64,000 bases of DNA from Halalkalicoccus tibetensis (GTDB lineage Archaea; Halobacteriota; Halobacteria; Halobacteriales; Halalkalicoccaceae), in assembly GCF_037996645.1 (NCBI RefSeq), contig NZ_JBBMXV010000004.1, forward strand, positions 62,001 to 126,000, read 5' to 3'. Of this stretch, positions 12,072-22,468 are shown one piece after another. Position 1 is the stretch's first letter. Every line of letters starts with the position of its first letter. The translations under genes were made by a program, and so were the position numbers. The notes below the pieces were generated by a model. The model was not told the origin of the DNA. It was given only the letters and a program-made list of their open reading frames with translations, and did no database searches.

Positions 12072-12344
12072 TTACCGTTCGTCGCCGGGCGTCGTCGGGC
12101 GCGGACGGCGCCCGAACTCCGAGCGCCGGTAGCGCTCCTGGTTGCGGATCTCCTCGTCCCACTCGGTGAAGATGCCGTACTCGACCATCGTCGTCATCCC
12201 CGCGATCGCCGCCCGGAGGTTGATGCCGACCAGCGGGATGTCCGCGACCGTCACGACGACGTCCGCCTGGACCAGCGCCCCCTCGGTCAACAGCACGTCG
12301 AGCACGTCGACGACCGCGTGACCCTCGGTGCGCGTCGGCTCCAT
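12072..12344 (-). CDS. gvpM: Gas vesicle protein GvpM
   Basis: GvpA-family minor protein, 90 residues, last gene of the leftward gvp operon. The GvpA-like core reads VVDVLDVLLTEGALVQADVVVTVADIPLVGINLRAAIAG. The tail EWDEEIRNQERYRRSEF is typical of GvpM. ATG 12344 is used; it overlaps the gvpL stop (TGATG), while the preceding GTG would add one residue. GvpM belongs to the F-M accessory set needed for vesicle nucleation. Confidence 0.88.
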   Translation of the reverse strand: MEPTRTEGHAVVDVLDVLLTEGALVQADVVVTVADIPLVGINLRAAIAGMTTMVEYGIFTEWDEEIRNQERYRRSEFGRRPRPTTPGDER

Positions 12345-13189
12345 CACTCCTCACCCCCGATCGACGGGGCATGCGAGTACGGCGGCCACGGCCCCGTGTA
12401 GTTGACGTCGAACCCCTCCCGCTCGAGGAACCCCTCGAGGACGTCGCCGATCGGCCCCTCGCTCTCCCCGGGCGCGAGCACCGAGAGCTGGACGACCGTC
12501 TCGAGGCCGTCGTCGACCCCGTTCGTCCCGCTGGCGTCCAGAAGCGTCGACCCGCCGTCCCCGGCCGTCTCGACCGCCGCGGCGTGTTCCGCGACCCGAT
12601 CGTAGAGTTCGCCCGCGAGCTCGTCGCGGCGCGCCTGGAGGCGCTCCGCGAGGCGCTGGTCGTACTGCTTCTCGATCAGGTAGCCGGTGCCCTCGCTCGA
12701 ACCCTCGATGCGCTCCTCGAGCTCCGCGAGCTCCTCGTCGCCCTCGGCGATCCCCTCGCGAACCGCCGCCTCGTCCCATCTGAGCTCGATCCGGTACTCC
12801 CAGCGGCCCGAGAGCTCGTCGAGGGCCTCGTCGAGCTGCGCGCCGTTCTCGTCGATCCAGCCCTCGACGCGCCCGTCGTCGCCCTTGATGACGGTGTCGA
12901 ATCGGAAGGGGACGGGGGTGTCGAACGCCTCGCCCGCGGCGTCGACGACGCGCTGATGGGCGAGTAGCCACCGCTTGACCTGCGTGAGGTCGTCCGAATC
13001 GAACATCGCGTCGACGGGCTGGACGACCGCGCCGATCCCCTCGTGCTCGACGATCCGGACCTCGCCGCCCTCGATTCCCTCGACGTCGATCGAGGCGTCA
13101 CCGTCGGCCCGGACCGCACAGTAGAGGTACCGACCCTCGTCGAACTCCGTGGCGCGCTGGTTCTGGTTTCGACTCTCGTTCCCGCTCAT
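12344..13189 (-). CDS. gvpL: Gas vesicle protein GvpL
   Basis: Protein of 281 residues of the GvpL/GvpF family, starting at ATG 13189 within the gvpK stop. It begins the conserved part with GRYLYCAVRADGD and ends with FDVNYTGPWPPYSHAP, the YTGPWPPY signature shared with GvpF. GvpL is thought to act as a hub that binds the other accessory proteins during nucleation. A longer upstream open frame on this strand is gvpK sequence read in another frame and is not coding. Confidence 0.92.
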   Translation of the reverse strand: MSGNESRNQNQRATEFDEGRYLYCAVRADGDASIDVEGIEGGEVRIVEHEGIGAVVQPVDAMFDSDDLTQVKRWLLAHQRVVDAAGEAFDTPVPFRFDTVIKGDDGRVEGWIDENGAQLDEALDELSGRWEYRIELRWDEAAVREGIAEGDEELAELEERIEGSSEGTGYLIEKQYDQRLAERLQARRDELAGELYDRVAEHAAAVETAGDGGSTLLDASGTNGVDDGLETVVQLSVLAPGESEGPIGDVLEGFLEREGFDVNYTGPWPPYSHAPSIGGEE

Positions 13190-13518
13190 TCTTCGAGCTC
13201 CTCGTAGTGGTCGTCGTAGACCCGTTCGATCCCGTCCGAGAGGAGGTCGTTGAGCTCGCCGCGCAGCTCGCCGACGTCGCTCTCGATCCCCTCTCGCTCC
13301 TTGATGCCCTCGATCTCCTCCTCGATCGCCTGGAGCTGCGTCCCGAGGCGTTCGATCTCCTCGGGGTCGAGAGCACCCGACTCCATCCGTCGGATCGCCT
13401 CCTTCTCCATGGCCTCGACGAGCAGCTCGACGACGGTGATCACGAGCGCCAGCAGCCCCGAGGCCGCGTCCGCCTCGCTTCCCTCGTCGCTCTCGCCGCC
13501 GAGGTCGATCTGTCTCAT
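13186..13518 (-). CDS. gvpK: Gas vesicle protein GvpK
   Basis: Protein of 110 residues matching GvpK: LLALVITVVELLVEAMEKEAIRRMESGALDPEEIERLG, then a coiled-coil-like acidic carboxy half. It is essential for vesicle formation in haloarchaea and bacteria. It overlaps gvpJ and gvpL by 4 bp at each end, which suggests translational coupling. Confidence 0.92.
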   Translation of the reverse strand: MRQIDLGGESDEGSEADAASGLLALVITVVELLVEAMEKEAIRRMESGALDPEEIERLGTQLQAIEEEIEGIKEREGIESDVGELRGELNDLLSDGIERVYDDHYEELEE

Positions 13519-13988
13519 GAATCGCCCTCACTTTCGTCGTCCGCGTCGGTCACCTCCTCGCCGCCCCCGTCACCCTCGTCCTCGCTCCCGCCCTCGCCGT
13601 CGTCGGTGGCGATCGGGACCTCGGGGTTCGGGCGCTCGCTCGGGGGGTCGCTGCTGGAGCTCTCGCTCCCGCCTTCATCGTCGTCCGCGTTCGAGCCCCC
13701 CTCGCTCGCGCTGATCCCAAGGTTGACTTCCTCGCCCTCCTCGACCTCGAGGGGTTCGCGGCCCGAGGCCTGTTCGACCCGGCGCATGTCCGTGCCGCTC
13801 GGGAACGCCAGTCCGTACTCGGCGGCGGTCTCGAAGGAGGCGATCGCCGCCCGGATCTCGACCCCCAGGAGCTCGGTCTCGCCGACGGTGACCGCGATGT
13901 CGGCGTTGATCACGATTCCCTTATCGAGCACGAGCTCGAGGACGTCCGCGAGGTCGCTTTTCTGTCGTGTTGGTTTTGCGCTGCTCAT
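13515..13988 (-). CDS. gvpJ: Gas vesicle protein GvpJ with long acidic tail
   Basis: GvpA paralogue of 157 residues. The GvpA/J core is residues 8-75 (LADVLELVLDKGIVINADIAVTVGETELLGVEIRAAIASFETA). A tail of about 70 residues, mostly Ser, Gly, Asp and Glu, makes it noticeably longer than the roughly 110-120 residues usual for GvpJ. Minor wall or nucleation protein. It sits seven bases after the unassigned gvpI-position gene and overlaps gvpK. Confidence 0.9.
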   Translation of the reverse strand: MSSAKPTRQKSDLADVLELVLDKGIVINADIAVTVGETELLGVEIRAAIASFETAAEYGLAFPSGTDMRRVEQASGREPLEVEEGEEVNLGISASEGGSNADDDEGGSESSSSDPPSERPNPEVPIATDDGEGGSEDEGDGGGEEVTDADDESEGDS

Positions 13989-13995
13989 GGTTAGG

Positions 13996-14796
13996 TCACT
14001 CCGTGTTCGCGTCGTCGAACCGTCGGCCGTAGATCCGCCGCGGGTTGTCCGCCCGCGAGTACTTGACCTGCGAGGGCACCGTCGAGCGCCGCGTCGAGGC
14101 CGAGTTCGCGAGCGGGCCGCTCGGCATCGTCGAGACCGCCGTCGGGTTCAACGAGTCCTGTCCGCTCAGCTTCTCCTGGTTGTACTTATAGAGCAGACGG
14201 AGCTTGTCGTGGGTCTCCAGCAGTGCGGTCCGGAACCCCCCAACCGCCTTCGAGATCAGGTTCTCGATGTGTTGCTGGCGGTTCTCGGGGTCGAACTGCA
14301 TGTGGGCGCCGTCGCCCATCCCCAGCTCCGTATCGAGCAGGCCGCCGTCGTCCTCGTTCGCGCCGTCGACGTCGTCGTCGGTGACGTCGTCGATCTCCTC
14401 CTCGAGCTCCTCCTGTTCCTCGCGCAGGTCCCCGATGTCCGCGGCCTCCCACAGCTCCCGGAACCGGATCGCGTCCTTGAGGTCGGTGAGATCGATCGCG
14501 TCGCCGTCCTCGTCATCGGCGATCGCCTCGGGGATCTCCTCGACGTCGACGGCGTCGGGCAGCTCGTCGAGCTCGATCACGTCGGGCACCTCCTCGAGGT
14601 CGAGGGTCTCGAGGACGTCCTCGGCCTCGTCGAGGACGTCCCAGATCTCCTCGGCGGTCTCGATGACGTCCTCGTCGTCGCTCCCCTCGACGATGTGGCG
14701 CTTCAGCTCCTCGATCCCGTCGGCGATCTCCGGGAGCAGCTCCTCGAGCTCGTCGAGGATCGACTCCTGGAGCGTCTCCGATTCGGTCTCGCTCAC
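13996..14796 (-). CDS. Acidic protein in the gvpI position, family unassigned
   Basis: Protein of 266 residues between gvpH and gvpJ, the place of gvpI in halobacterial clusters. Classical GvpI is short and basic. This protein is long and acidic, with three imperfect units (LEEVPDVIE, LDELPDAVD, VEEIPEAIA, around residues 66-95), then FRELWEAADIGDLREEQEELEEE. A later helix, VGGFRTALLETHDKLRLLYKYNQEK, precedes a basic Ser/Arg-rich end (RADNPRRIYGRRF). The carboxy end could be a GvpI remnant fused to an unrelated haloarchaeal domain; I cannot confirm that. It overlaps gvpH by 4 bp. Confidence 0.7.
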   Translation of the reverse strand: MSETESETLQESILDELEELLPEIADGIEELKRHIVEGSDDEDVIETAEEIWDVLDEAEDVLETLDLEEVPDVIELDELPDAVDVEEIPEAIADDEDGDAIDLTDLKDAIRFRELWEAADIGDLREEQEELEEEIDDVTDDDVDGANEDDGGLLDTELGMGDGAHMQFDPENRQQHIENLISKAVGGFRTALLETHDKLRLLYKYNQEKLSGQDSLNPTAVSTMPSGPLANSASTRRSTVPSQVKYSRADNPRRIYGRRFDDANTE

Positions 14797-15317
14797 GATC
14801 CTGCCCCCTCGGGTTCGGTCCGCAGGCGGACCTCGAGGACGCCGTTCCTGAACGTCGAGTCGGCCACGTCGATCCCGGCGTCGCCGAGCGGGATCCGCTC
14901 GATCACCTCGCTCCCGAGCCCGATGACGAGGTCGCCCCGCTCGCGGTCGATCCCGGCGGTGACGTCCTCGGCGGTCGCCTGCGGGAGGTCCGCGAGCACG
15001 ACCACGGCGTCCTCCTCCTCGCGGATGTCGACGAGGTGGTCGTCGTCGGCGGGTGCGGGCGTCGACGCCGAGCCCGACGACCCCGATCCGCTCGCCTCGC
15101 TTTCCTCGTCGACCCCGAGGCGCTCCCAGAGGCTGTCGGGGTCCGGTCCGGTGCCGACGCTGAACCCGTAGTCGGTGCGCGTGTGGTTGCCCGAGACCGT
15201 CCCGCTGCCCGTTCCACTCCCCTCGCCGTCTCGTTCCGCGTCCTGTAGCGTCTCGACGACGTGTCTGAGGACGTCGAGCAGCGACGAGGCTTCGCGATGG
15301 TTGTCGTCGGTCGTCAT
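14793..15317 (-). CDS. gvpH: Gas vesicle protein GvpH (Hsp20-like)
   Basis: Protein of 174 residues. The amino half is Gly/Ser/Thr-rich and low complexity. The carboxy half is a small-heat-shock-like domain (HLVDIREEEDAVVVLADLPQ, then FRNGVLEVRLR, the alpha-crystallin FxNGVLEV pattern). GvpH in Haloferax and Halobacterium is dispensable and thought to chaperone other Gvp proteins. It overlaps gvpG upstream and the unassigned gene downstream. Confidence 0.9.
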   Translation of the reverse strand: MTTDDNHREASSLLDVLRHVVETLQDAERDGEGSGTGSGTVSGNHTRTDYGFSVGTGPDPDSLWERLGVDEESEASGSGSSGSASTPAPADDDHLVDIREEEDAVVVLADLPQATAEDVTAGIDRERGDLVIGLGSEVIERIPLGDAGIDVADSTFRNGVLEVRLRTEPEGAGS

Positions 15318-15568
15318 TGTTGGATCTGGATGTTCTTGTTGTTGAGCTGTTCGTGTGCCTGTTCGGCCGTCTCGAGCTCCGCCTCGAGCTCCGCCTTCCG
15401 CTCAGTGTACTCCGCCTCGGTAAGCTCCCCGAGCTCGTAGAGCAGCTGGTTCTCCTTCAGGTCGTTCTGGATCTCCTCGATGTCGTACAGCTCCTTGACC
15501 GCCATCGTGTGGATCGCGTCGAGGATGGAGGTGAACGGTCGGATGAGGATGTCATCGAGGATGAACAT
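15314..15568 (-). CDS. gvpG: Gas vesicle protein GvpG
   Basis: Protein of 84 residues with the GvpG pattern: MFILDDILIRPF at the start, then AVKELYDIEEIQNDLKEN and a coiled coil (LGELTEAEYTERKAELEAELETAEQAHEQL). Essential accessory protein. The gene follows gvpF by 6 bp and overlaps gvpH by 4 bp. Confidence 0.92.
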   Translation of the reverse strand: MFILDDILIRPFTSILDAIHTMAVKELYDIEEIQNDLKENQLLYELGELTEAEYTERKAELEAELETAEQAHEQLNNKNIQIQQ

Positions 15569-15574
15569 GATTGG

Positions 15575-16204
15575 TTATCGTTCGGCGGTGATCTCGATGT
15601 CGACGAAGTTGTAGGGTGCCCACGGCCCGGTGTACTGTACGAGCAGCTCGTCGTGGTCATCCTCGAACTCGCCGACGGCCCCGTCGAACGCCTCCCGGTC
15701 GTCGCGCTCGACGAGGTACGATCGGTTGATCACGAGTCGATCACTGAACAGTTCGTTCTCCACCACGTTAACACTTATCCGGTCGAACCGCTCCTTGACC
15801 TCCGCGAGGAGCTCCTCGCGATCGACCTCGGCGTCCTCCTCGGTGAGGACCTTCAGGCCGAGCTCGACCATCCCGTCGATCTCCCGTAGCGTCCGTCTGA
15901 ACACCGGCCTGGCGTTCCTGAGGACGTTCTTCAGGGTGCGCTCGTTCTTGAACCCCATGCCGAACCCCATCGGGACGATCGTCCGGCCGCCGTCGTACTG
16001 GAGGATCGTCTGGAGCACCTCGTCGTGCCGGCGGACGTTCTCGTCGGTCCGCTCGGGTTCGACCGTGTCGATGTCCGAGACGACGGCCGAAAGCGATTGG
16101 TAGTCGACCGTGTAGGCGCGCTCGCCCCCGTCGACGCCGTCGATCTCGACATCGAGGTCCTCGTTCTCGATCACGCCGTACACGTAGAGTGAGTCGTCGG
16201 TCAT
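15575..16204 (-). CDS. gvpF: Gas vesicle protein GvpF
   Basis: Protein of 209 residues, first gene of the leftward operon, starting at ATG 16204. Family features are [11 protein letters not shown], the central [19 protein letters not shown], and the end [20 protein letters not shown] with the same YTGPW-PYNF element as GvpL. GvpF is a minor structural/assembly protein that contacts GvpA. An upstream extension to 16360 would run into the divergent gvpA promoter and is rejected. Confidence 0.93.
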
Positions 16205-16332: not shown

Positions 16333-16596
16333 ATGAGTCAAGCAAGACCAAGCACGTCAAGTCTGGCGGAAGTACTCGACCGGATCCTCGACAAAGGCGC
16401 TGTCATCGACATCTGGGTCCGCGTCTCGCTCGTCGGGATCGAGATCCTGACCGTCGAGGCCCGTGTCGTCATCGCGTCCGTCGACACGTTCCTCCACTAC
16501 GCGAGGGAGATATCGAAGATCGAGCAAGCCGAGGAGGAAGGGGACTTAGACGACCTCGAGGACATCGAGATCGAGGCGTCCGCCGAATCCGCGTAA
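16333..16596 (+). CDS. gvpA: Major gas vesicle protein GvpA
   Basis: Main wall protein, 87 residues. The core is near-canonical: [58 protein letters not shown]. It forms the amphipathic rib lattice of the vesicle. The carboxy tail is more acidic than usual ([21 protein letters not shown]). The ATG at 16333 follows GAGGGGAAG, a possible ribosome binding site. gvpO follows 9 bp downstream. Confidence 0.97.
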
Positions 16597-16605
16597 GCGG
16601 GCCCC

Positions 16606-17058
16606 ATGTCCGCTGCGGGATCAGACGACGGGCAGTGTCGGGCGCTGACGTCCGACGGTGAGCGGTGTACCCGGCCGGAACAGGACGACGGGTTCTGTTA
16701 TCAACACGGGCCCGACGACGAGACGATCGACGATCAAGAGACAGGATCCACTATGTCAAGCGAAACCGACGTCAGCGAGACCGAGATCGGTGCCGTGCGC
16801 ACGAAGATCAACGAGGTCGCCGAGGACCTCATCGGACGGCCGCTCATAAGCGTCGTCTCCGTCGACCGCGACCGCAAGAAGGACGACGACGAGGAGCCGG
16901 GCTGGGTCGCGGCCGTCGAGATCCTCGAACGCAAGAGCGTCCCCGACACCCAGGACATCCTCGGACGCTACGAGATCACGCTCGATGCGGACCAGACGAT
17001 CACCGGCTACCGTCGAACCCACCGGTACCGCCGCGACGACATGGATCAGGACGTCTGA
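16606..17058 (+). CDS. gvpO: Gas vesicle protein GvpO with N-terminal Cys/His knuckle
   Basis: Protein of 150 residues. The carboxy part (about 65-145) is GvpO: ISVVSVDRDRKK, then GWVAAVEILERKSVPDTQDILGRYEITLDADQTITGYRRTHRY. The first 35 residues form a separate module, CRALTSDGERCTRPEQDDGFCYQHG, with a C-x8-C-x8-C-x2-H pattern that probably binds a metal. An internal ATG (codon 50) would give the classical GvpO alone. Both starts read well; the longer is annotated because the knuckle is clearly protein-like. Confidence 0.87.
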   Translation: MSAAGSDDGQCRALTSDGERCTRPEQDDGFCYQHGPDDETIDDQETGSTMSSETDVSETEIGAVRTKINEVAEDLIGRPLISVVSVDRDRKKDDDEEPGWVAAVEILERKSVPDTQDILGRYEITLDADQTITGYRRTHRYRRDDMDQDV

Positions 17059-17109: not shown

Positions 17110-17448
17110 ATGAGTGACGACGAGATCGTCCTGCCATGGATCGACGAACCGATGAACGTAGAGGAAGCCGTCGAGGCGCTCGGGCAGGCCTCAGTCGACG
17201 ACGGCGAGCACCTCGAGGAGCTGGAAGCACGTATCGAACGCCTCGAACGCCTCGTCGACAGCCTTCAGGACGGTTCAGGGGTCGAATGCCCCGAGTGCGG
17301 GAGCGAGGAGGAGGTCTACAAGGCCGGCGTCGGCGCCGCGAAGCTCGCGAACGACGGCGGGCTGACCGACGGCAGCGCCGACGCGCTCAACCGTGAGTCC
17401 CACGTCTGTCTCGACTGCCAGGAGTCGTTTACACCCTCGTTCAAGTGA
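17110..17448 (+). CDS. Coiled-coil zinc-ribbon protein downstream of gvpO
   Basis: Protein of 112 residues, not recognised. Residues 1-30 are acidic with a possible amphipathic helix (MNVEEAVEALGQA). Residues 35-55 form a short coiled coil (LEELEARIERLERLVDSL). The rest has two CxxC pairs (CPEC and CLDC) flanking about 40 residues, a likely zinc ribbon. It is 51 bp after gvpO on the same strand. A role in vesicle assembly or regulation is a guess from position. Confidence 0.75.
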   Translation: MSDDEIVLPWIDEPMNVEEAVEALGQASVDDGEHLEELEARIERLERLVDSLQDGSGVECPECGSEEEVYKAGVGAAKLANDGGLTDGSADALNRESHVCLDCQESFTPSFK

Positions 17449-17515: not shown

Positions 17516-20038
17516 ATGGGTGATGAACGTACGACCGATGACTCCATAGAGCGATCCGAGAGGCACGTACTGCTTTCGGATGGTGGGGAGTCAGCGGACG
17601 AAAGCGAGGAGGACGACGAAGAGGGAGAAGCGTCCGAAGACACGGGACCCGAGAACGGAGAGGACGACGAAGAAGGGGAAGACGAGAGGAGCGAAAGTGA
17701 CGAGGAAGACGATGAAGTGGAGCAAGACGACGAAAGTGAGGAGGACGAAGAGGAGAACGGCGACGAGGAAGACGAGGAAAGCGAGGCCGACGAAGACGAC
17801 GAAGACGAAGAAGACGAGGAAAGCGAGGCCGACGAAGACGACGAAGACGAAGAAGACGAGGAAGCGGAGGAAGACGAGGAAGAGACATACGAACTTTCGG
17901 TAACCGTCGAGAACAGCGAGGGCGAATCCGTCGCGGGCGCGCCCGTCACCGTCGAGAGCAAGGATATGGGGGTCATCGAGGGCGTTGTCGACGATCCCGA
18001 GCAGGAAGAAACCGACGAGGACGGCGCGGTCACCTTCGAGTTAGGGGACGCTGAATACAGCGTCGAAACAGTCGTCGGCGACGAGGAAGTCGAGGAACGA
18101 ATCGAGACCGACGGCGCCGACGAGGAGGTTACCCTTTCGCTCGATACCGACGCCGAAGACGCGGAGGAAGCAGAAAACGAAGACGAGGCGGACGAAGACG
18201 AGGCGGACGAAGACGAGGAGGAGGCCGAGGAAGAACAAGCCGATGAAGGCGAGGAGGACGAAGAGGATGCGGAGGGCGAAGCCGACGACGGCGACGAGGA
18301 GGAAGCAGCCGAGGAGAGCGAGCGAAACGAGCTGATCGTCGTCGTCGAGAACGAAAACGGCGAGTATATTCAGGGCGCGACCGTCTCGGTCGAAAACAAG
18401 GACGACGACTCCTTGGGTGGGGGCGAACAGCAGGACACCGGCTCCGATGGCGAGACACGGTTCCTCGTCGAGGACGGCGATTACGTCGTCGAGGCCGAGG
18501 CCGACGAGGGGAGCGCCGAAGACCAGTTCCCCCTTGAAGGCGACGAGGAGATCACGTTGACCGTCGTCTCCGACGAGGAGACTCACACGCTCACAGTCAC
18601 CGTACAGGACGACGAAGGCGAGCCCGTTTCAGGGGCGTCTATTACCGTCGAAAGCGAGGATATGGGGTTGGTCGAGGGATTTCAGACTCGCCCCGACGAA
18701 GCCGAAACCGATTCGAGCGGACAGGAGTCCTTCGATCTGGCGTCAGGTCAGTACACGGTGGCCGTCGAAGCCGACGACGAGACGAACGACCAAGCGATCG
18801 AGATCGAGGACGACGACGAGGATGTCACGCTCACGCTCGATGTCGGCGAAGAGGACGAGGAGGACGAAGAGGAAGGTCGTGTCGGCCCGAAGGAAGCGGA
18901 GGGCGAGGTCGACGAGGACGAGTCCGCGAGCCACGGCACCGAACGCGGATCGACGGTGCTGTATCTCGATCTCGAGGGGCTGTTCCTCGATCTCCTCGGA
19001 CTGGAGGTCGATCTCCACGAGGTCGTCCTCGACGTTCGGGCGATCACTGGAGAGGGGAACCTACTCGGGAACCTGCTGTCGGCGGTCGCAGGGCTGTTGG
19101 ATTCGCTGTCGGGCGTGCTCAACCGATTGCTCAACACCGTCCTCAATCTGTTGAGCTACATCACTTCGCCGTTGAAATGGCTCTGGAACCAGATCAAAAA
19201 ACCGTTCAAATGGGCCCGCCAGCTCTTGAGCCGGGTCGCGAACACGCTCGCGGCGCCGATCAGTGCGATCAAGAGCGCTGCAAGTCGGGTCTGGGGTGTC
19301 ATCACCTCGCCGATCAACGCACTCAAGAGCGCTGCGAGCTGGATCTGGGGAATCGTCAGTTCGCCGGTGGATTCGATCAAAAACGCGCTGGGACGGCTCC
19401 GGGGGCTACTCCCCTCGTTGCCCTCGCCCGGTGGCTGGCTGGGGAGTGTCACAGAGCGACTCAAGAGCGCCCTCGGCGTTCCGGCCGACTACCTGCGCGT
19501 CGGCGCGAACCGTCTCGGAAACTCCATCGAGAACGCGATCGACGCGCTGCGTGGCCTCGGCGGTCGAGTTCTTGGAGTTCTTACCTCGCCGATCAGTGCG
19601 CTCGGTAGCGCACTGGGTCGGCTTCGAGATGCGTTGGCCTCGCCGATCGAGACGCTTCGAAACGCCGCGAGCCGCGCTTTCGGCGTGCTCACCGCGCCGG
19701 TCGACTGGCTGCGTGGGCTGTTCGGCGGCGACGATGAAGAGGACGAAGAGGACGAAGGGGACGGATTGCTGAGTGGGATTGCAGAAAGCGTCTCCGACCG
19801 GCTGAGCAGCGTCGTCGAATGGGCGAGCGACATCGAGGATCGGATCGCGGGCTGGGCGCGAAACGCTGCGGATCGGATCTCGAACTGGCTGCGCAACGTC
19901 GCGAACTGGCTCACCAGCCCGATCCAGATGCTGCTTTCGGCGTTCCCGATCGAGTCGCTGCTCAACGAGCTGCTCAAGCAGTTGATCGGTGAATCAGAGG
20001 ACAACGAGTCGAACGGTGGGGAGGACACTACCGAGTGA
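17516..20038 (+). CDS. Large acidic modular protein: Cna-B-like domains, LGNLL domain, 18-residue helical repeats
   Basis: Protein of 840 residues with no signal peptide. Residues 25-125 are almost pure Asp/Glu/Ser. Three homologous beta domains of the Cna-B/carboxypeptidase-regulatory type lie at about 126-207, 272-348 and 357-437 (VTVENSEGESVAGAPVTVES and relatives), separated by acidic linkers. Residues 482-525 form a compact hydrophobic domain (LFLDLLGLEVDLHEVVLDV, then GNLLGNLLSAVAGLLD). Residues 580-735 are amphipathic helices punctuated by Ser/Ala-Pro, often 18 residues per unit. Two more helical stretches follow an acidic spacer. Function unknown; a surface-coating protein is an inference. 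TATA-like CTACTTATG lies about 25-30 bases upstream. Confidence 0.8.
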   Translation: MGDERTTDDSIERSERHVLLSDGGESADESEEDDEEGEASEDTGPENGEDDEEGEDERSESDEEDDEVEQDDESEEDEEENGDEEDEESEADEDDEDEEDEESEADEDDEDEEDEEAEEDEEETYELSVTVENSEGESVAGAPVTVESKDMGVIEGVVDDPEQEETDEDGAVTFELGDAEYSVETVVGDEEVEERIETDGADEEVTLSLDTDAEDAEEAENEDEADEDEADEDEEEAEEEQADEGEEDEEDAEGEADDGDEEEAAEESERNELIVVVENENGEYIQGATVSVENKDDDSLGGGEQQDTGSDGETRFLVEDGDYVVEAEADEGSAEDQFPLEGDEEITLTVVSDEETHTLTVTVQDDEGEPVSGASITVESEDMGLVEGFQTRPDEAETDSSGQESFDLASGQYTVAVEADDETNDQAIEIEDDDEDVTLTLDVGEEDEEDEEEGRVGPKEAEGEVDEDESASHGTERGSTVLYLDLEGLFLDLLGLEVDLHEVVLDVRAITGEGNLLGNLLSAVAGLLDSLSGVLNRLLNTVLNLLSYITSPLKWLWNQIKKPFKWARQLLSRVANTLAAPISAIKSAASRVWGVITSPINALKSAASWIWGIVSSPVDSIKNALGRLRGLLPSLPSPGGWLGSVTERLKSALGVPADYLRVGANRLGNSIENAIDALRGLGGRVLGVLTSPISALGSALGRLRDALASPIETLRNAASRAFGVLTAPVDWLRGLFGGDDEEDEEDEGDGLLSGIAESVSDRLSSVVEWASDIEDRIAGWARNAADRISNWLRNVANWLTSPIQMLLSAFPIESLLNELLKQLIGESEDNESNGGEDTTE
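17768..17851 (+). repeat. Two perfect 42-bp tandem copies in the acidic tract
   Basis: Bases 17768-17809 and 17810-17851 are identical, and the first bases of a third copy follow. Each codes for fourteen residues rich in Glu and Asp with one Ser and one Ala. The plus strand here is nearly all purine plus C. Confidence 0.9.
19253..19693 (+). repeat. 18-residue proline-punctuated helical repeats (54-bp units)
   Basis: Three contiguous units code for residues 580-597, 598-615 and 616-633 (APISAIKSAASRVWGVIT, SPINALKSAASWIWGIVS, SPVDSIKNALGRLRGLLP). After a diverged 57-residue stretch, two more units follow at 691-708 and 709-726. The consensus is [SA]-P-[IV]-x2-[LI]-x2-A, then x2-R in most units, ending in a hydrophobic pair. 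Eighteen residues equal five alpha-helical turns. Confidence 0.85.
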
Positions 20039-20183: not shown

Positions 20184-20675
20184 ATGAGTGACAACGGAAA
20201 TGACGACAACGGCAGTGGTACCGAGAACGAAAACGGAAACGGCGGCTCTTCGCTGCTCGATACGGTCACGGAGGCGGTCGGCGACATCGATTTCGAGCAG
20301 GTGTTCGAAGGAACAGTATTAGAGGATTCCTTCGACCCGGACGAGCAGAACACCGGGGTGGCGGTCGGGCGTGCGGTTGGCGAATTCCTTGGCCAGAAGC
20401 TCGGTGAGGTCGCTGGTCGGAAGATCGCGGAGATGATCGCCGAGGAGTTAGCCGAGAGTGATGATGAAGACGAAGAGGATGAGGAAGACCAAGAAGACGA
20501 GGAGGAAGACGCTGATGAAGAAGAGGATGACGGCGACGAGGACGAAGACGAGGAATCGGAGGGGGAAAACGAAGAGGATGAGGGCGAAGACGCTGATGAA
20601 GAAGGGGATGACGGTGACGAGGACGAAGACGAGGAATCGGAGGAGGAGCCCGAGGAAGAAGACGAGGAGGACTGA
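20184..20675 (+). CDS. Glycine-zipper acidic protein 1
   Basis: Protein of 163 residues. A Gly/Asn-rich start is followed by a helix (residues 59-90) with Gly at exactly every fourth position (62, 66, 70, 74, 78; GVAVGRAVGEFLGQKLGEVAG), then about 75 residues that are nearly all Asp and Glu. The segment before the helix, EGTVLEDSFD, matches EGTQLEDTDG in the next protein, so the two are paralogues. ATG 20184 is chosen over 20127 because the paralogues also start MSD. Function unknown. Confidence 0.72.
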   Translation: MSDNGNDDNGSGTENENGNGGSSLLDTVTEAVGDIDFEQVFEGTVLEDSFDPDEQNTGVAVGRAVGEFLGQKLGEVAGRKIAEMIAEELAESDDEDEEDEEDQEDEEEDADEEEDDGDEDEDEESEGENEEDEGEDADEEGDDGDEDEDEESEEEPEEEDEED

Positions 20676-20786: not shown

Positions 20787-21470
20787 ATGAGTGACGACAA
20801 CAACGACGACGACAGTTCGGTCCTCGAAAGCATCGATACGGACGAACTCCTCGAAGGGACACAGCTAGAGGACACCGACGGGGATACCAAGAGCCTGGGC
20901 GAGGCGATCGGCCGTGCGATCGGTGCGATCATCGGAAGGCATATCGGCGAACTAATCGGACGGATGGTTACCGACCGGCTCAGCGGCGGAGACGAAGAAG
21001 AAGACACTCATGAACTGACGGTCACCGTGGCAGACGAGGACGGCGAACCCGTTCCGGGCGCGACCGTGACGACCAAGGACGCGGATGGGGGCCTTCTGAG
21101 TGGCGTTCTCGGGAGTGCCGAACGCGCCGAGACCGACGACGACGGCGAGACCACCGTCCAGCTCGAAGACGGCGACTACACGGTCGAGGTCGACGCCGAG
21201 GACGGAAGCGGCGAGGACAACGTGACCATCGAGGGCGAGGACGAGGAGCTCTCGGTGACCATCGAGGATGAAAGCGACGACGAGGAAGACGCCGGAGAGG
21301 ACGAAGCCGAAGACGCTGAAGAAGACGAAGCCGAAGAAGCTGAAGAAGCTGAAGAAGACGAAGCCGAAGAAACTGAAGAAGCTGAAGAAGACGAAGCCGA
21401 AGAAGACGAAGCCGAAGAAACTGAAGAAGCTGAAGAAGACGAAGCCGAAGAAGACGAAGACGAAGAATGA
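20787..21470 (+). CDS. Glycine-zipper acidic protein 2 with one Cna-B-like domain
   Basis: Protein of 227 residues. The amino part is homologous to the preceding protein and has Gly at 38, 42, 46, 50, 54 and 58 (LGEAIGRAIGAIIGRHIGEL). A single Cna-B-like domain follows at about 74-150 (HELTVTVADEDGEPVPGATV), closely related to the three in the 840-residue protein. The tail is Glu/Ala/Asp repeats. The mix of modules ties this gene to both types of neighbour. Role unknown. Confidence 0.75.
   Translation: MSDDNNDDDSSVLESIDTDELLEGTQLEDTDGDTKSLGEAIGRAIGAIIGRHIGELIGRMVTDRLSGGDEEEDTHELTVTVADEDGEPVPGATVTTKDADGGLLSGVLGSAERAETDDDGETTVQLEDGDYTVEVDAEDGSGEDNVTIEGEDEELSVTIEDESDDEEDAGEDEAEDAEEDEAEEAEEAEEDEAEETEEAEEDEAEEDEAEETEEAEEDEAEEDEDEE
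21363..21458 (+). repeat. Two perfect 48-bp tandem copies (Glu/Ala/Asp tract)
   Basis: Bases 21363-21410 and 21411-21458 are identical and sit in a longer purine-rich tract (about 21290-21468). The tract uses GAA for glutamate almost throughout, unlike the GAG preference of most genes in the window. Confidence 0.9.
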
Positions 21471-21532: not shown

Positions 21533-22468
21533 ATGAGTGACGAGTCGATCATCGAGGCTGTCAATACTGGGGCACTGCTCGAAGCTATCGACATCGGCGA
21601 TCTACTCGAAGAGGTCGATCTCGAAAAACTGGCCAAGCGCGAGGATGTCAACGCAGCGGTCGCGGAGGTCGGTGCGGTCCTTGGGCGCGAACTGGGGCGG
21701 GCACTCGGCCGGGAACTCGGAGAGGTTACCGCCGAAGCGTTCGCCGAACACCCCTCAGCTGACGAGCTGATCGAGGAGATTAAAGGCGCGATCCACGAGG
21801 CGCTCAGGAGCCTGCTGGTGGATCCTGACGCTCGGTCGTCGCTCAAAGACGAACTCAAATCAATTGGTACGGAGCAGCTCTCCGGAGACCTGATATCGGA
21901 CGCTGTGGGCGGTTCGCTCGGCGATGACGAGGAAGAAGATGGCGAAGACGAGCAAGCGAGCGAGGAGGACGCCGAATCAGATGGGGAAGAGTCTGGCGAG
22001 AGCGACGATGAGGACGCTGAAGACGAGTCCGAAGAGGTGGAAGAAGACGAAGGAAGCGATGAGGGCGGGGACGAGGAAACCGAAGACGAAGAGGAGAAAG
22101 ACGAAAAGGACGAGGAGGCTGAAGAAGACGAGGAAGCTGAGGAAGACGAAGAAGGCGACGAGGGGGAGGACGACGAAGAAGAGGAAGAAGGTGACGAGGA
22201 AGGTGAAGAAGAGGACGAAGACGAAGAAGAGGCGGACGAGGAGGCTGAAGAAGACGAGGAAGCTGAGGAAGACGAAGAAGAAGAGGACGAAGGCGACGGG
22301 GACGAGACTGAAGGGGACGAGGACTCTGATCCGTCGAGCCGCGAGGAGTTAGAGGAGCTGTCCTACCGCGAGCTGCAGTCGCTCGCGAAGGACCACGACA
22401 TCAAGGCCAACCTCGGTCGCGAGGAGATGACCGACGATCTCGTCGAGGCGCTCGACCTCGAGGAGTAG
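21533..22468 (+). CDS. Glycine-zipper acidic protein 3 with SAP/Rho-N-like C-terminus
   Basis: Protein of 311 residues. The start resembles its neighbours (MSDESIIEAVNTGALLEAID). A helix has Gly at 47, 51, 55, 59 and 63 (VGAVLGRELGRALGRELGEV). Residues of about 75-130 look globular and helical. A Glu/Asp tract runs to about 265. The last 45 residues (LEELSYRELQSLAKDHDIK, then a short helix ending LVEALDLEE) resemble the SAP/Rho-N helix-extension-helix fold that often binds nucleic acid. ATG 21533 follows a GGAGTG sequence. Function unknown. Confidence 0.75.
   Translation: MSDESIIEAVNTGALLEAIDIGDLLEEVDLEKLAKREDVNAAVAEVGAVLGRELGRALGRELGEVTAEAFAEHPSADELIEEIKGAIHEALRSLLVDPDARSSLKDELKSIGTEQLSGDLISDAVGGSLGDDEEEDGEDEQASEEDAESDGEESGESDDEDAEDESEEVEEDEGSDEGGDEETEDEEEKDEKDEEAEEDEEAEEDEEGDEGEDDEEEEEGDEEGEEEDEDEEEADEEAEEDEEAEEDEEEEDEGDGDETEGDEDSDPSSREELEELSYRELQSLAKDHDIKANLGREEMTDDLVEALDLEE

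Follow-up and report, generated by a model that had tools for sequence, protein, structure and literature searches.

Which surface, if any, is bound by the proline-punctuated helical repeats encoded at 19253-19693 of the window, the 64,000-nucleotide stretch of Halalkalicoccus tibetensis DNA that we analysed? The original prediction had likened these repeats to apolipoprotein helices and had offered a gas vesicle, a lipid body or a polyhydroxyalkanoate (PHA) granule as the coated surface. The coordinates correspond to aa 580-726 of an 840-aa protein (17516..20038, + strand), which is called from its open frame, a codon-based gene call and orthologues in the same place. We consider, with a probability of about 55%, that the repeats are the amphipathic rod of an accessory protein serving haloarchaeal gas-vesicle clusters that lack GvpC.

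The repeats were recovered much as they had been described. Five 18-residue units beginning with [S/A]P[I/V] start at aa 580, 598, 616, 691 and 709, and a partial sixth starts at aa 727 (19253..19747, + strand), giving spacings of 18, 18, 75, 18 and 18 between unit starts. Identity autocorrelation over aa 501-770 peaks at lag 18 (z=8.5), with lags 36 and 54 ranking next, and a 54-bp tandem unit is present at the DNA level at 19254-19366. The mean 18-residue hydrophobic moment of aa 580-726 was 0.453, compared with 0.200 in composition-matched shuffles (z=8.6), and was reached by 0 of 999 147-aa segments from 43 other proteins of the window, in which the maximum was 0.334. The moment peaks at 100 degrees, and 18 residues at this angle make 1800 degrees, or five turns, so that a straight rod keeps a single greasy side. 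Accordingly, the one-faced, five-turn geometry of an amphipathic surface-binding helix holds, with a high moment at 100 degrees that lies above background. The repeat zone is also basic, as had been claimed, with 16 K/R and 7 D/E, whereas aa 1-479 of the same protein contain 13 K/R and 224 D/E. The hydrophobic stripe is phase-coherent over aa 516-740 (19061..19735, + strand; moment 0.445 at 100.5 degrees; shuffle 99th percentile 0.18) and holds its phase through stretches without [S/A]P, indicating that the amphipathic stretch extends beyond 19253-19693. The AF2 model of the C-terminal half, of modest overall confidence (pLDDT 66, pTM 0.28), places a single helix at aa 516-614 with pLDDT mostly 75-90.

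From the N to the C terminus, the 840-aa protein comprises an acidic segment, three Ig-like domains, a hydrophobic module, the rod, an acidic patch and an amphipathic helix. The acidic segment (17516..17875, + strand) carries near its start a conserved VL.DGG motif, which by eye is found in minimal orthologues too. The Ig-like domains (17888..18847, + strand) are of the CarboxypepD_reg/Big_1 type, matched in three stretches (Pfam PF13620 1.2e-17, PF02369 8.4e-15) with acidic linkers between them. The module of 55 hydrophobic residues, VLYLDLEGLFLDLLGLEVDLHEVVLDVRAITGEGNLLGNLLSAVAGLL (18950..19102, + strand), ends in GNLLGNLLSAVAGLL and is conserved in 133 genomes (alignments A1 and A3). The C-terminal helix FPIESLLNELLKQLIG (19901..19999, + strand) resembles LPLEELLxQFxxELVxQLL of the minimal orthologues, and P340 is nearly invariant in alignment A2. 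The protein contains no cysteine, and its sequence has no visible hydrophobic signal-like N terminus. It is this module (LFLDLLGLEV...GNLLGNLLSAV), and not the repeats, that is the conserved core, and the 18-residue repeats are a lineage-specific elaboration on it. Pfam and NCBIfam contain no family for the module, a Foldseek search of the module model against the PDB gave no match at E<=0.001, and profile comparison with PDB sequences yielded no more than a weak match, put down to chance (E 0.018).

The gene lies within a gas-vesicle locus. Upstream on the + strand are gvpA (16333..16596; Pfam PF00741, 56.8 bits), gvpO with an N-terminal DUF5763 (16606..17058; Pfam GvpO 4.4e-22) and a gene for a small Zn-ribbon protein, ZnR (17110..17448), which has weak zinc-ribbon matches and orthologues in other gvp clusters. 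Downstream, also on the + strand, are genes for three acidic Gly-zipper partners: zip1, with a Gly-rich amphipathic helix and an acidic tail (20184..20675); zip2, with a Gly-zipper-like helix, an Ig-like domain (CarboxypepD_reg 8e-10) and an acidic tail (20787..21470); and zip3, with a Gly-rich helix, an acidic linker and a C-terminal SAP/Rho_N-like domain assigned from sub-threshold Pfam matches (21533..22468). We regard these genes, from gvpA to zip3, as a putative rightward operon, and gene order and orthologues place the gene of the 840-aa protein in it. The leftward genes gvpM, L, K, J, I, H, G and F occupy 12072..16204 on the - strand (Pfam, GvpA-family matches, orthology). Among them, the 266-aa GvpI homologue (13996..14796, - strand) was recognised because a profile of its relatives matches Halobacterium (Hbt.) salinarum GvpI, including the double STxP motif (1.5e-18, single-sequence search). 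Pfam and NCBIfam have no family for the zip proteins or the GvpI-like partner. No GvpC match was found in the genome itself, and a plasmid search with the helical half of the 840-aa protein gave no match.

Several further features of the locus were noted. The N half of the Zn-ribbon protein (17110-17448) is coiled-coil-like, and several families keep its gene in the interval from gvpO to the module gene; this protein might take the place of the zinc-finger end of GvpC. An Ig-like domain is common to zip2 (20787-21470) and the 840-aa protein, and therefore the two have probably exchanged domains. In this genome gvpN is unlinked to the gvp cluster (C1:344713-345477, L065), and a lone fourth gvpA-family gene, 68% identical to gvpA of the window, lies far from it (C4:607273-607383; L064:7244-7447). 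The SAP/Rho_N-like domain of zip3 is also the C-terminal extension of a ribosomal protein, uS3, in families f10 and f12 (L280, L281, L282, L284), where the uS3 identity was judged from the place in the ribosomal operon. The zip3 matches in G009, G011, G025, G037 and G048 were set aside, being mostly uS3 extensions and otherwise in unrelated contexts, with no module or gvp neighbours.

Relatives of the protein show which of its parts vary. Minimal module proteins of 238-344 aa consist of the module and the C-terminal helix without the long rod, and in families f1, f4, f5 and f13 this form occurs in the order gvpA-gvpO-ZnR-module protein-zip3. The module gene of the Natrialbaceae is not part of the gvp cluster; it is followed by zip2-like and zip3-like genes, often together with a gene carrying the GvpI motif (RHSTMAPPPS..RHSTMP); here the rod has a period of 11 residues, which is likewise compatible with a helix. 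In L285 (G251), zip2, zip3 and the GvpI-like gene are still present although the module gene looks broken or truncated. The 18-residue repeats are confined to near relatives, in which 2-6 units were counted by eye. Considering that a 54-bp DNA repeat is present, that the repeat number differs between species and that the minimal orthologues have no repeats, the units could have arisen not long ago by tandem duplication within a hydrophobic tail and have no surface function under selection, so that only the module and the C-terminal helix matter. We regard this as unlikely, because neither the divergence of the units nor the non-repeat stretches (aa 516-580 and 634-690) throw the stripe out of phase, and the Natrialbaceae relatives have the 11-residue period instead.

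We examined the distribution of the module in 392 related genomes of the order. On the one hand, gvpO is present in 163 genomes and the cytosolic module in 133, and 132 of these 133 also carry gvpO (Fisher 1e-72). On the other hand, none of the 12 gvpC genomes has the module, compared with 132 of the 151 other gvpO genomes (Fisher 3e-10; genus level 8e-4; 163 gvpO genomes); these P values are descriptive, since the genomes are phylogenetically non-independent and unevenly sampled, with the Natrialbaceae dominating. Both states occur within genera g25 and g29, where one species has gvpC and a different one the module operon. The 12 gvpC genomes comprise 11 with a clear GvpC and one, G284, with a divergent GvpC-like protein carrying the FEAYA motif, encoded between gvpA and gvpN (L295:7184-8434); the search with Hbt. 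GvpC did not pick up the latter, which was added from reading the cluster. The module count leaves out G077, G081 and G089, whose modules are of a secreted two-cysteine type, and G008, whose match is weak and partial (8.6e-8). Nineteen gvpO genomes have neither GvpC nor the module. The Halococcaceae gvp clusters of G053, G085 and G093 (L286, L288, L289), which have neither gene, encode a short Gly-rich acidic protein after gvpM.

By genomic linkage and by co-occurrence with the core gvp genes, the 840-aa protein is a gas-vesicle accessory (Gvp) protein in the broad sense, and the link of the module protein to gas vesicles is strong. Among the surfaces originally proposed, operon position, synteny in other families and near-perfect co-occurrence with gvpO strongly favour the gas vesicle, and the lipid body and PHA granule are left without support. 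Amphipathic helices of 11- or 18-residue period are known in apolipoproteins and perilipins, which speaks for a coat on a lipid body or PHA granule. We consider such a coat very improbable, given that 132 of 133 module genomes carry gvpO and that no PHA or lipid-body gene, including any pha gene, was recognised among the neighbouring gene calls of the window. The apolipoprotein likeness therefore stands for the geometry, in that apolipoprotein A and perilipin also have amphipathic helices with a single hydrophobic face, either punctuated by proline or built on 11 residues. It fails for the family: the 840-aa protein matches no apolipoprotein or phasin family in Pfam or NCBIfam, and its gene, unlike theirs, stands in an archaeal gas-vesicle context.

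A surface-coating role of the 840-aa protein on the gas vesicle is plausible. In this case, the rod would lie flat on the outside of the GvpA shell with its hydrophobic side inward and its basic residues toward the acidic surface helix of GvpA. In cyanobacterial GvpC, hydrophobic residues and an arginine that meets GvpA glutamates make the contact with helix alpha2 of GvpA (PMC9994262), and accordingly a basic hydrophobic stripe would suit this site. So placed, the rod would bind the surface and stiffen or space the ribs, a GvpC-like job done by a protein that is not a GvpC homologue. On the cytoplasmic side, the Ig-like domains would form a hydrophilic coat together with the acidic tail and the three acidic Gly-zipper partners, and this coat would either separate vesicles or link them. 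Considering that GvpI binds GvpC in Hbt. salinarum (PMC9501494), we count the GvpI-like gene beside the module gene in favour of the GvpC-like reading. Deletion of GvpC gives large, deformed and weak vesicles (PMC4390858, PMC9372576), and loss of the 840-aa protein would be expected to give a similar phenotype. The rod cannot be the only function of the family, because the minimal orthologues in gvp clusters have no long repeat rod; since some members lack it, the module and the C-terminal helix must suffice for the basic function, which we infer the rod strengthens or extends. A GvpC-like coat is also not obligatory, in view of the 19 gvpO genomes with neither protein and of Bacillus megaterium, whose vesicles are without GvpC (PMC9994262). 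Counting against the coat, clusters without gvpC and gvpDE were reported from Halopiger, Haladaptatus, Natrinema, Natrialba and Natronobacterium, and the five species were all Vac-negative (PMC4390858).

Comparison with known GvpC proteins showed similarity in organisation and difference in sequence. GvpC of Hbt. salinarum (WP_010890518.1) is likewise a product of the gvpA operon, with repeated amphipathic helices forming a rod, a variable repeat number, an acidic tail and a hydrophobic moment of similar size (0.396). However, the two proteins have no sequence homology (blastp E 0.009, 17% identity; hhalign probability 1.5%), and the repeats are 18 or 11 residues long in the module family compared with 33-40 in haloarchaeal GvpC. 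The 840-aa protein differs further in its net basic stripe, its module and its Ig-like domains and has no C-terminal zinc finger in the same chain, and its module family was not found in gvpC genomes. A likeness of the GvpC segment IGNLLAAIEAL to GNLLGNLL was judged to be chance. Cyanobacterial GvpC, with 33-residue repeats, also forms a helical rod laid along the GvpA ribs (PMC9994262), but each of its repeats rotates by 60 degrees, compared with 0 for 18 residues, and the 840-aa protein gave no Pfam match to it in a comparison made by Pfam only. We also considered a rod length matched to the GvpA spacing and rejected it, since the fit is too loose: 27 A for 18 residues compared with about 24-25 A for two GvpA.

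The large acidic and Ig-like extensions suggest another use of the same anchor. The rod or module may hold on to the vesicle with no role in wall strength, and the acidic, Ig-like and SAP-like parts may connect one vesicle with another, or with the nucleoid, ribosomes or the membrane. The partner proteins are nearly always encoded close by the module gene, and the SAP/Rho_N-like domain of zip3 is of a type that other haloarchaea fuse to uS3, both of which would fit a tether or organiser of this kind. However, nucleic-acid binding by zip3 depends on the sub-threshold matches, and tethering alone leaves the mutual exclusion with gvpC unexplained. We therefore hold this alternative to be rather doubtful, though the most serious of those considered.

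Returning to the coat on the GvpA shell, the standard view makes GvpC the second wall protein of gas vesicles, although many clusters of haloarchaea do without it. A recognisable gvpC is present in only 12 of 163 gvpO genomes, and most of the remainder share one unnamed gene set. We tentatively suggest, at slightly less than even odds, that most haloarchaeal gas-vesicle systems use an unnamed outer-shell set rather than GvpC, which would make the set a non-homologous substitute for the wall's second structural protein. The set would consist of the module-rod protein, the acidic Gly-zipper partners and a second GvpI-like protein, and in the Natrialbaceae would be encoded away from the gvp cluster. 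We found no proposal of a replacement for GvpC in the literature searched, which covered few subscription journals and preprints. If the replacement is true, the archaeal vesicle wall as usually described is that of a minority type, and the gene set becomes a new handle on vesicle stiffness, clustering and surface display, as in imaging and antigen display. It would also give a widespread unnamed protein module a candidate function to test.

The module has homologues (alignment A3) in secreted-looking proteins of bacteria and haloarchaea that, unlike the 840-aa protein, have two conserved cysteines, a signal peptide-like N terminus and no gvp or zip neighbours. Since related modules come after signal peptides, a net basic amphipathic helix is a classic membrane-binder form and GvpI-like genes accompany the module, the module and repeats might bind the cytoplasmic membrane and act in vesicle biogenesis or GvpF-M assembly instead of coating the shell. 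However, the stripe is a long one that runs straight and keeps its register for 225 residues, as would a rod on an ordered surface, and the two cysteines of the secreted modules are missing from the cytosolic ones, making membrane binding improbable in our judgement. Neither cysteine occurs in 136 module copies of the haloarchaeal set, whereas an upstream cysteine was present in 47 of 47 GNLLGNLLC loci read in L096-L154; as an exception, the cytosolic, gvp-linked copy of G065 keeps both. The secreted GNLLGNLLC proteins of L096-L154 are widespread in Actinobacteria, Chloroflexi, Cyanobacteria and other groups without a Pfam or NCBIfam name, and AF2 predicted four short strands and two helices for the bacterial module (pLDDT 72, pTM 0.37). 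Two Kribbella have a short signal-less module protein encoded 3-5 kb from gvp genes, and one further short signal-less bacterial form adjoins a gvpA.
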